64,000 nt of DNA from assembly GCA_018712945.1 (NCBI GenBank), contig DVFZ01000070.1, positions 1 to 64,000 on the forward strand, in the 5' to 3' direction. The stretch's first letter is position 1; each line of letters begins with the position of its first letter. Below the pieces are notes generated by a model, which was given only the letters and a program-made list of their open reading frames with translations, had not been told where the DNA came from and did not search any database. The stretch is from Candidatus Pullichristensenella stercorigallinarum. GTDB taxonomy: Bacteria; Bacillota; Clostridia; Christensenellales; Aristaeellaceae. This document shows positions 6,632 to 55,859 of this stretch, piece after piece. Made by a program: the position numbers and the translations under genes.

Positions 6632-6901
6632 GTGATATTGACAAAGTTGGCAGGCCGGCAAAGAATGAAAGGCCTGCGAGCCGTGGACGCAATGCCGCGA
6701 GTAGGGAGCTTGGCATGGACGCAAGCGGCTGCGGGCCGCAATTCCGGCTAAGAGGGAAACTTCACTGGCAGCGCGGTTTGCCGCTGCACAGCTGGAGTTG
6801 ACAACTCCCTATGGTCTGGCAAATGTATTGCAGCAAGCGAAAATTGCCTCTTCCCTTTTGAGAGAGGCAATTTTTGCGTTTTCTGGCTTTGCCAGCGCTC
6901 T
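6632..6901. repeat. dispersed structured repeat family A, diverged long copy
   Basis: Shares with the other three copies the left motif TTGACAAAG (6638-6646), the central A/T-rich inverted repeat GCGAAAATTGCCTCT/AGAGGCAATTTTTGC (about 6837-6877) and the right end GCCAGCGCTCTG (6890-6901). It is about 270 bases because of an extra stretch near 6750-6835. The arm GCAGGCC/GGCCTGC (6650-6656 and 6670-6676) replaces the equivalent stem of the other copies. Confidence 0.6.
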
Positions 6902-6904
6902 GGA

Positions 6905-12596: not shown

Positions 12597-12732
12597 GATA
12601 AATTGCAACATGTGGCTATACGGGAAATGATATGGAATTTAATGATTGCGCCGCCCTGCCGCGTGAATCACTCTTTCCCCAGGCCAGGAAAAGCAAGCGT
12701 TTTGCAGCGACATGACCAAGGCGCGACACAGA

Positions 12733-12975
12733 CCCCGTTTCGCAGGAAACGGGGTCAGGATGTTGACAAAGTCAACAGACTGCCAGAGGGATGCAAAAGC
12801 CTGCAAGACAGGGAAGCAAACTTGCAGGCAAGGGAGCGGGCGTAAGCGACCGCAGCCCGCGCATGCGGTTGACGCCGGAAGCAAAAATTGCCTCTGACTT
12901 CTCTCTTATCAGAGCGATTTTTGCGTTTGCGAGCCTTGTCAGCGCTCTGCGCCCCCGTTTCACAGGAAACGGGGG
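12733..12975. repeat. repeat family A, well-preserved copy with duplicated flanking hairpins
   Basis: Core 12758-12950: GTTGACAAAGTCAAC palindrome (12762-12776), stem GCCTGCAAG/CTTGCAGGC (about 12799-12827), stem GCAAAAATTGCCTCTGA/TCAGAGCGATTTTTGC, right end GTCAGCGCTCTG. On its left is the hairpin CCCCGTTTCGCAGGAAACGGGG (12733-12754) and on its right almost the same hairpin with CACAGG loop (12952-12975). It lies directly 3' of glgA. The rest of the 12600-12992 interval holds nothing else recognisable. Confidence 0.75.
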
Positions 12976-30206: not shown

Positions 30207-30351
30207 GGCCTCAGGGGATTAACAAAGTTCGCAGACTGTCAGCGTGATGAGAAAGCCCACAAATTTGCTGGCACAGTATGCAAAAATTGCTTCCCCATTC
30301 CTCTTTAGGAAGCAATTTTCGCGTTGCGGGCTTTGTCAGCGCTCTGAGGCC
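30207..30351. repeat. repeat family A, short copy
   Basis: Left motif AACAAAGTTCGCAGACTGTCAG, central stem GCAAAAATTGCTTCC/GGAAGCAATTTTCGC (with base changes on both arms relative to other copies), right end TTTGTCAGCGCTCTG. The mid-part is deleted. Its borders GGCCTCAG (30207-30214) and CTGAGGCC (30344-30351) are complementary. Directly 3' of the minus-strand gene at 30357. The remainder of 29957-30206 shows no gene. Confidence 0.7.
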
Positions 30352-53959: not shown

Positions 53960-54221
53960 CGCCGGGTGCGAAGTAAATTCGCACCCGGCGCCAGGATGTT
54001 GACAAAGTCAACAGACTGCCAGAGTGATGAGAAAGCCCGCAAGGCAAGGAAGCAAACTTGCGGGCAAGGGAGCTTACATGGACGTAAGTGACCGCAGACG
54101 GCAAGTACGGCTGACGCAGGAAGCAAAAATTGCCTCTGATTTCTCTTTGATCAGGGCAATTTTTGCGTTTGCGGGATTTGTCAGCGCTCTGACGCCGGGT
54201 GCGAAGTATTCGCACCCGGCG
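53960..54221. repeat. repeat family A, well-preserved copy with duplicated flanking hairpins
   Basis: Core 53991-54192 with GTTGACAAAGTCAAC, stem GCCCGCAAG/CTTGCGGGC, small stem CTTAC/GTAAG, stem GCAAAAATTGCC/GGCAATTTTTGC and right end TTTGTCAGCGCTCTG. Flanked by hairpins with identical 13-bp arms CGCCGGGTGCGAA/TTCGCACCCGGCG at 53960-53990 (loop GTAAA) and 54193-54221 (loop GTA). 21 bases 3' of potD. Nothing else is seen in the gpsA-potD gap. Confidence 0.75.
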
Positions 54222-54242: not shown

Positions 54243-55859
54243 TTAGTTCGCCGTGCGCACGTCCATCCAGATTTCTTCGTAGAGGTCCATATGGTCGGAC
54301 ACATCGAGGAAGAACTCGCAGCGATCTACCACATCCTGCGGAGGATTGAGTACCTCGTTGGCGGCCTCTTCTTCGCTCATGCCGTCCACGACGGCCTGGA
54401 TCGGGGTGGAGTAGTAGATGTAGTCCATATTCATGCGGGCGATGTCAGGGCGGCACATGAAGTCGATGAAGCACTCGGCCGCTTCCTTGTTCTGGCTGGC
54501 GGCGGGCACGCACATGGCGTCCACCCAGATGTTGGAGCCTTCTTCGGGCACGCAGTAGGCCAAATCTTCATTTTTCTCCATGGCATAGAGGGCGTCGCCA
54601 GACCACACCAGGCCGATGGTGGCCTCGCCCGCGACCATCTTATCCTTGATCTCATCGACGAGGTAGCCGGCGCACACGCCGCTGCGCTTCTGCTCAATGA
54701 GCTTATCGCGCGCCTCTTCCAGCTCGGAGCGTTCGACGCTGTTCATGGAATAACCCAGGGACTTGAGGGCCACGCCCAGCGTATCGCGCACGCTGTTCAT
54801 CATCAGCACTTCGCCGACAAATTCCTCAGAGAACATGTCGTCCCAGCTGGTCAACTCACGATCGACCATGGTGGTGTTGTACAGATAACCGACGGTGCCC
54901 CACATGTAGGCCACGGAATGCGTGCCGCCCTCGTCGTAATCGGGGGTCTTGAGCCACTCCATCAGGCCGGCGGCGTTGGGCATGTTATCGTAATTCAGCT
55001 CGGCGAGCATGCCGTCGTTGACAAGGCGCTCGATGATATAGTCCGAGGGGAAGATTACATCGTAGGCGCCCGGAGTGGCCTCGAGCTTGGTGTACATTTC
55101 CTCATTGGTGGTGAAGTTGACGTACTCCACGGTGATGCCAGTTTCTTCCTCAAACAGGTCGATAACGGCCGGGTCGATATAGTCGTACCAGTTGTATACC
55201 GTCAGCGTAGTGCCGGCGTAGGGCTGTTCGGCGGGTTCTTCGGTGACCGCGGCAGTCTCAGCGGCGGCGTCTTCCTCGGCGGGCTCCTCGGTCGCTTCCT
55301 CGGCGGGCTCCTCGGTCGCTTCCTCGGTGGGCTCCTCAGTCGCTTCCTCGGCGGGTTCCTCGGTTACTTCCTCGGTGGGCTCCTCAGTCGCTTCCTCGGT
55401 GGGTTCCTCGGTTACTTCCTCGGTGGGCTCCTCAGTTGCTTCCTCGGCGGGCTCCTCGGTCGCTTCCTCAGCGGGTTCCTCGGTTGCTTCCTCAGCGGGT
55501 TCCTCGGTCGCTTCCTCAGCGGGTTCCTCAACGGAGCGCGCAGCAACGGCGGGAGCGGCTTCCTCAGCAGAGGCTTCGGCCGGTTCTTCCGTCGCTTCCT
55601 CAGCGGGCGCTTCCGCCGGCTCCTCCGTGGGCGCCTCGGTCGCTTCCTCCGTGGGCGCCTCGGTGGGCGCTTCGGTCACTTCCTCCGTCGGGGCTTCCGT
55701 CGCTTCTTCTGTCGGTCCCTCCGTCGGCTCCTCCGTAGCCTCAACGGTGGGCGCCTCCGTCGCGGCGGGCTCGCTCTGGTTGGAGCAGCCAGTGGCAAAC
55801 GCGGCAACCAGCAGCGACAGCACAAGCAGGGCGATCAAAGCCAGTCGGGTCTTTTTCAT
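54243..55859 (-). CDS. potD: polyamine ABC transporter substrate-binding lipoprotein with long acidic repeat linker
   Basis: 538 residues. Lipoprotein signal with lipobox 'FATGC' (Cys25), then about 185 residues of degenerate 8-residue repeats of the type EEPAEEAT/EEPTEEVT, then a complete PotD-type binding domain from 'LTVYNWYDYIDPAVIDLFEE' with 'DVIFPSDYIIERLVNDGMLA' and 'VWSGDALYAMEKNEDLAYCV'. The solute-binding part has normal PotD length; the linker is extra and would hold the domain away from the membrane, across the cell wall. It binds spermidine or putrescine for the PotABC transporter; last gene of that operon. Confidence 0.92.
   Translation of the reverse strand: MKKTRLALIALLVLSLLVAAFATGCSNQSEPAATEAPTVEATEEPTEGPTEEATEAPTEEVTEAPTEAPTEEATEAPTEEPAEAPAEEATEEPAEASAEEAAPAVAARSVEEPAEEATEEPAEEATEEPAEEATEEPAEEATEEPTEEVTEEPTEEATEEPTEEVTEEPAEEATEEPTEEATEEPAEEATEEPAEEDAAAETAAVTEEPAEQPYAGTTLTVYNWYDYIDPAVIDLFEEETGITVEYVNFTTNEEMYTKLEATPGAYDVIFPSDYIIERLVNDGMLAELNYDNMPNAAGLMEWLKTPDYDEGGTHSVAYMWGTVGYLYNTTMVDRELTSWDDMFSEEFVGEVLMMNSVRDTLGVALKSLGYSMNSVERSELEEARDKLIEQKRSGVCAGYLVDEIKDKMVAGEATIGLVWSGDALYAMEKNEDLAYCVPEEGSNIWVDAMCVPAASQNKEAAECFIDFMCRPDIARMNMDYIYYSTPIQAVVDGMSEEEAANEVLNPPQDVVDRCEFFLDVSDHMDLYEEIWMDVRTAN
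55217..55760 (-). repeat. 24-bp-period coding tandem repeats in potD
   Basis: On the plus strand the unit reads like GCTTCCTCGGCGGGCTCCTCGG with variants; about twenty units, coding mainly for Glu/Pro/Ala/Thr. Regular units at 55260-55540, more degenerate ones to 55760. Confidence 0.85.

Follow-up and report, generated by a model that had tools for sequence, protein, structure and literature searches.

A likely MITE-like, IS1182-type element carrying an ERIC-like module between duplicated terminator hairpins in gut Clostridia

The window, that is, the whole stretch of 64,000 nucleotides that was analyzed, contains at 53992-54191 (+) a complete copy of a 200-bp element with IS1182-type ends around an ERIC-like module, and neither a transposase nor any gene was found in it. 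Two copies of a terminator hairpin flank this element. The left hairpin (53960-53991, no strand assigned; CGCCGGGTGCGAAGTAAATTCGCACCCGGCG) is repeated after the right end and, read in the direction of the upstream gene, bears a T-run on its outer side, and the right one (54192-54221, no strand assigned) terminates a solute-binding-protein gene located at 54243-55859 (-). Within the element, the left end (53992-54018, +) contains the terminal repeat CAGGATGTTGACAAAGTC inside the terminal hairpin CAGGATGTTGACAAAGTCAACAGACTG. This is followed by the ERIC-like core, composed of the P1 stem and its GGGAGCTTACnnnnnnGTAAGTGACCG tip (54041-54122, +), for which the covariance model R1 gave a match with E = 1.8e-20; by the P2 hairpin GCAAAAATTGCC...GGCAATTTTTGC (54124-54168, +), which shows compensatory changes; and by the right end (54174-54191, +), a terminal repeat with the reverse complement CAGAGCGCTGACAAATCC. 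A second, nearly complete copy was located at 12756-12949 (+), with hairpins of 26 bp and 4 mismatches at either side (12730-12755 and 12950-12975). An old degenerate copy at 6633-6902 (+) gave a covariance-model match of only E = 0.047, and an internally deleted copy at about 30212-30346 (+) has lost the core, or P1 domain.

BLAST analysis of the own genome, an assembly of 2.96 Mb in 130 contigs, found at least 40 copies with 84-100% identity, and 48 right ends were detected within one mismatch, against 0 for the reversed control pattern. Many contigs of this genome end inside element copies (e.g., C19, C58, C60, C72, and C113), and because of these breaks the copy number is a lower bound. 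The element was present in 5 of the 7 genomes of the genus and in another genus of the family with up to 92% identity, with two more at 70-79%; the named relatives, among them Candidatus Pullichristensenella and Candidatus Faecivicinus, are gut Clostridia (Christensenellales), in which the element is common. All the Clostridial genomes used are apparently metagenome or draft assemblies. The whole element gave no BLAST match in plasmids and phages, and nine hits of the exact left-end pattern in viral contigs were judged to be chance, the sequence beyond the 18-bp match being unlike the element. The sequence-only reading had proposed four related places, all in the same orientation, with the feature under study spanning 53960-54221, and had named the absence of further copies as a refutation. 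The four places were indeed related and all in the + orientation, and further copies were abundant. The shared orientation is restricted to the window, as both strands are about equally used genome-wide (21 and 27), and the range held only in part: the outer hairpins are target-site duplications and lie outside the element.

Nearly every complete copy had the layout hairpin - CAGGAT...CTCTG - hairpin, where the hairpin differed from place to place and was identical on both sides of a given copy. When the flanks were compared in the 87 copies with both sides available, left and right matched in 69 (score >=15), and shuffled pairs of the pooled set gave 0 matches. A direct repeat of 19-40 bp touching both ends was found in 63 copies; it was usually exactly the hairpin, and in most of these copies the outermost base of the repeat was already part of the stem. 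The outer foot of the hairpin was enriched in T- or A-tracts (22/63 and 28/63, against 8/91 and 4/91), indicating that many targets are intrinsic terminators. No bias was observed in the orientation of insertion relative to the terminator (10:16, p = 0.33). The 54-kb site was empty in two congeners, G003 and G006, where the same gene and a single terminator were found with no element. What is duplicated around the copy is a whole hairpin, as an exact target-site duplication, and this hairpin is usually an intrinsic terminator.

Departures from this layout were also observed. The hairpins were mutually inverted in 8 of 78 copies, and about nine further copies had unlike hairpins. One insertion site was common to two species (L032 in the own genome and L049 in G006, 92% identity over 2.1 kb), and only one of them had a flipped loop in the left hairpin of this site, so loop flips are at least partly later events. 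Two copies of the own genome (L016 and L027) had one hairpin in common, which lay on the left of one copy and on the right of the other, as if the flanks had been swapped by homologous recombination or misassembly.

The terminal inverted repeats of the element are short (CAG...TTGACAAA) and like those of IS1182-family insertion sequences (IS) in the same bacteria. In RUG-type copies, the right end CAGACCGCTGACAAAGC was identical in 17/17 positions to one end of IS L239. At two copies, one hairpin is common to the copy and an adjacent element that starts with CAGACCATTGACAAACCCC and encodes a transposase, and the four such transposases checked all belonged to the IS1182 family, with 409-467 bits for a cut-off of 270. 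Moreover, in 300 genomes of the family, intact IS1182-family IS with ends of the same type showed perfect hairpin duplications of 31, 22, 32, 20, 25, and 25 bp; family membership was checked for three of these six. The asymmetry of the element was also found in IS L236: in both, one end has the terminal repeat inside the terminal hairpin, and the other has the terminal repeat and then a separate hairpin. A degenerate IS1182 remnant (L219:700-1330) had an end region fused to the right part or interior of the element. The MITE criterion of ends matching an autonomous IS was met by the CAGNNNNYTGACAAAG ends common to the element and the IS1182-family IS, and that of the same target duplication by the hairpins of the 63 element copies and the six IS. 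The remaining MITE criterion was met by the absence of a transposase, the about 48 right ends, and the insertion polymorphism (empty in G003 and G006).

The element and the IS1182 elements have their ends and layout in common, with no long shared stretch, and the IS1182-like copies of G030 had other ends. An IS1182 transposase was undetected in the element-rich genomes G001, G002, G003 (100%-complete), G021, and G025; therefore, the partner was lost, is unassembled, or is different there. One candidate for the autonomous partner, L123, was rejected: it proved to be the remnant of an IS1182 element next to an isolated end hairpin. Because IS1182-family IS duplicate hairpins and the empty 54-kb sites contain one hairpin, the 200-bp element is likely to be of the IS1182 type, non-autonomous and MITE-like, with terminators as its targets and an ERIC-like module inside; its mobilization in trans is an inference. 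In this model, an IS1182-family transposase would act in trans on the element ends, the element would insert in a terminator hairpin, and the whole hairpin would be copied to its other side.

The interior of the element folds into a stem that closes it, P0, a second stem, P1, and the hairpin P2. P1 has up to 15-16 bp of variable sequence and the tip AAGGGAGYTTACn6GTAARTGACCG. In the alignment of 80 copies, 116 double-change cells were counted against a shuffled mean of 22, and when the structure was slid out of register the paired cells fell to 42% or less. A set of 23 diverse modules, including copies of another family, gave 64 double-change cells against 17 upon shuffling, and the 55 distinct matches gave 341 against 105, in an alignment fitted to the model. 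One G.U pair was kept in 50 of these 55 sequences, pointing to one functional strand. Like this pair, a symmetric GA/GA internal loop exists on one strand only, and among the single changes G.U outnumbered A.C (107:53). Collectively, this analysis showed that the interior is a folded ERIC-like module kept by compensatory changes. That the module functions as one strand, either RNA or single-stranded DNA, is inferred, and the level of selection is unproven. A plain MITE with a meaningless interior was rejected, since the interior is conserved and covaries across genera and families.

These alignments bear on the central claim of the sequence-only reading, namely that the repeats are a dispersed element that is structured, codes for no protein, and shows compensatory changes under selection. 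The claim was supported, and the covariation was real in both the 80-copy and the 23-module alignments when compared to shuffles. The example of paired arms given there, GCCCGCAAG/CTTGCGGGC, was right only locally; across relatives, the pairing of these letters is divided between the helices P0 and P1. That reading had missed the mobility with IS1182-type ends, the ERIC-like module at the core, and the nature of the outer-edge 'stems', which are the duplicated terminator hairpins. The mobility and the relationship with ERIC are thus new with respect to it.

The module was also found beyond the transposon ends. The model R1 is a covariance model of the core built from Clostridia only. Of the 396 genomes of the order, 122 contained full-length matches to it, spread over 43 of 142 genera, and the modules often formed tandem arrays of roughly 140-280 bp spacing. 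In other families, P0 closes directly round the module (median duplex energy of -19.2, against -11.8 for swapped partners), and IS1182-type ends were absent from most of the copies inspected. In another family of the order, the same module was found inside different IS1182-like ends (L367:1047-1390; CAGCCTGTCGA...), suggesting possible repeated capture of modules. The 3' side of the module adjoined the 3' end of an opposite-strand gene in about 21 of 29 loci, a count made by eye that rests on a simple ORF heuristic. We infer that the module predates the transposon ends, and that an ERIC-like element of much greater age acquired the IS1182-type ends or had them built around it. Tandem modules were observed beside tRNA genes with repeated tRNA 3' fragments at two loci (L284 and L285). 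Outside these families, an ERIC-like module lies between replication and primase-like genes (L369:4546-4626) on a contig that also has relaxase-like genes and that we take to be, probably, a Bacteroidota mobilizable element, the protein sequences being judged by eye. R1 matched nowhere in 202 kb of other DNA, and the exact pattern of the core was absent from 397 other genomes of the phylum.

A scan of viral contigs with the tip pattern found contigs with CAAGGCGGC...GGGAGCTTACAT..GTAAGTGACCG...CAACGCAG, and one such sequence was present by BLAST in 5376 of 5426 complete E. coli genomes, at a median of 11 places. By comparison with the ERIC core and primer sequences, we take this sequence of viral contigs and E. 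coli to be ERIC/IRU; the size, family, and distribution of ERIC were obtained from published reviews. The E. coli copies of this gamma-proteobacterial homologue were intergenic in both loci inspected. R1 matched Pantoea ERIC across all 82 positions (1-82), with E = 6.4e-6, and in two E. coli loci only the 25-27-nt core scored, with E about 0.01. In alignment A5, with 13 modules across phyla, the tip was conserved, as were portions of the flanking blocks. Because the Clostridial core model also matches enterobacterial ERIC, we regard the core as an ERIC-like module outside gamma-proteobacteria. Of the ERIC/IRU criteria, an imperfect palindrome of about 127 bp that contains a conserved central core and flanking blocks was fulfilled (R1 and alignment A5). 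The 7-bp terminal repeats with TA termini and TA duplication were not, with CAG-repeat ends and hairpin duplication found instead, and because these ERIC ends are unmet the element is called ERIC-like and not ERIC proper. A new, order-specific RNA class had been considered and was abandoned once the viral contigs and E. coli showed ERIC.

The alternative that survives best is that a transcribed structured RNA, either a small RNA or an mRNA-stability element, is the functional unit, with selection acting on the RNA fold and transposition being incidental. The strong compensatory change, the one-strand-only G.U pair (50/55) and GA/GA loop, and the 107:53 ratio of G.U to A.C are in its favor, as is the report that ERIC in Yersinia alters mRNA stability (PMC2229807). 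However, the orientation relative to the terminator is unbiased, a fixed upstream gene is absent for most copies, and single-stranded DNA would give an equal strand bias. In the absence of expression data, we find this alternative possible, but clearly less likely than the mobile-element reading. A second alternative is that the resemblance between the core and ERIC reflects convergence on a common hairpin and not common descent. The restriction of the E. coli scores to the 25-27-nt core and the lack of the exact core pattern in the 397 other phylum genomes speak for it; nevertheless, the Pantoea match spans the complete model, unpaired conserved blocks outside the core (CAAGGCGGC and CAACGCAG) are common to phyla, and the P0-P1 layout is the same with a similar length, so convergence is unlikely. 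Movement by IS30-type transposition is very unlikely. The targeting and duplication of inverted repeats has been described for IS1630 (according to a title cited in PMC3317919), but only one broken IS30-family fragment was present in the own genome, nine relatives had none, the distribution of the family does not follow that of the element, and the element ends match IS1182-family IS instead. The criterion of an IS30 transposase with the same ends was not met, and an IS30 (IS1630) derivative was rejected. A broken IS30-family transposase (L069:1200-2357) lies next to long GC-rich repeats.

For the preferred reading, a MITE-like IS1182-type element around an older ERIC-like module, the consequences are as follows. 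ERIC repeats became known in 1990-91 and serve as typing markers. The literature reviewed, which places ERIC in enterobacteria and vibrios, names no transposase that moves them. With a Clostridial module between recognizable IS1182-type ends and clean target duplications, ERIC-like movement becomes testable. A bolder reading is possible, in which the ERIC-like elements of Clostridia, a Bacteroidota-type mobilizable element, and gamma-proteobacteria all belong to a single ancient family of structured mobile DNA, with hairpin-duplicating IS1182-type transposition among its means of spread. If this were true, the missing mover would be supplied for part of the ERIC family.

The element can be compared to several known systems. 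Like the IS1182 family (IS1272 and TnSha1), a family of DDE transposases, it uses hairpin or terminator targets without sequence preference. IS1272, the best-known hairpin-targeting member, deletes the hairpin and leaves no duplication (PMC5678879, PMC4923244), whereas the present element duplicates the whole hairpin. Duplication of the whole stem-loop has been drawn as a possible alternative, 'pathway b' (PMC5678879), and dozens of natural insertions display here this counterpart of the hairpin-deleting mode. IS1630, of the IS30 family, has a different transposase family and was not found here. The window element had no Rfam family above the gathering threshold. In viral contigs, V_AS5 (RF02818) overlaps the ERIC-like module with sub-gathering scores (39.5 and 31.4, against 96), and CssrA (RF02798) adjoins one of these overlapping modules. 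In published descriptions, ERIC has 7-bp ends and TA termini and occurs in Enterobacteriaceae and Vibrionaceae (PMC10969869, PMC2229807). ERIC/IRU and the Clostridial element share a core of about 82 nt, CAAGGCGGC - P1 - GGAGCTTACAT..GTAAGTGACYGG - P1' - CAACGCAG, and the closing stem P0, and both are intergenic, multicopy, and non-coding. In contrast to ERIC/IRU, the Clostridial element is enclosed by IS1182-type CAG ends with hairpin duplication, has the extra P2 hairpin, and resides in Clostridia.
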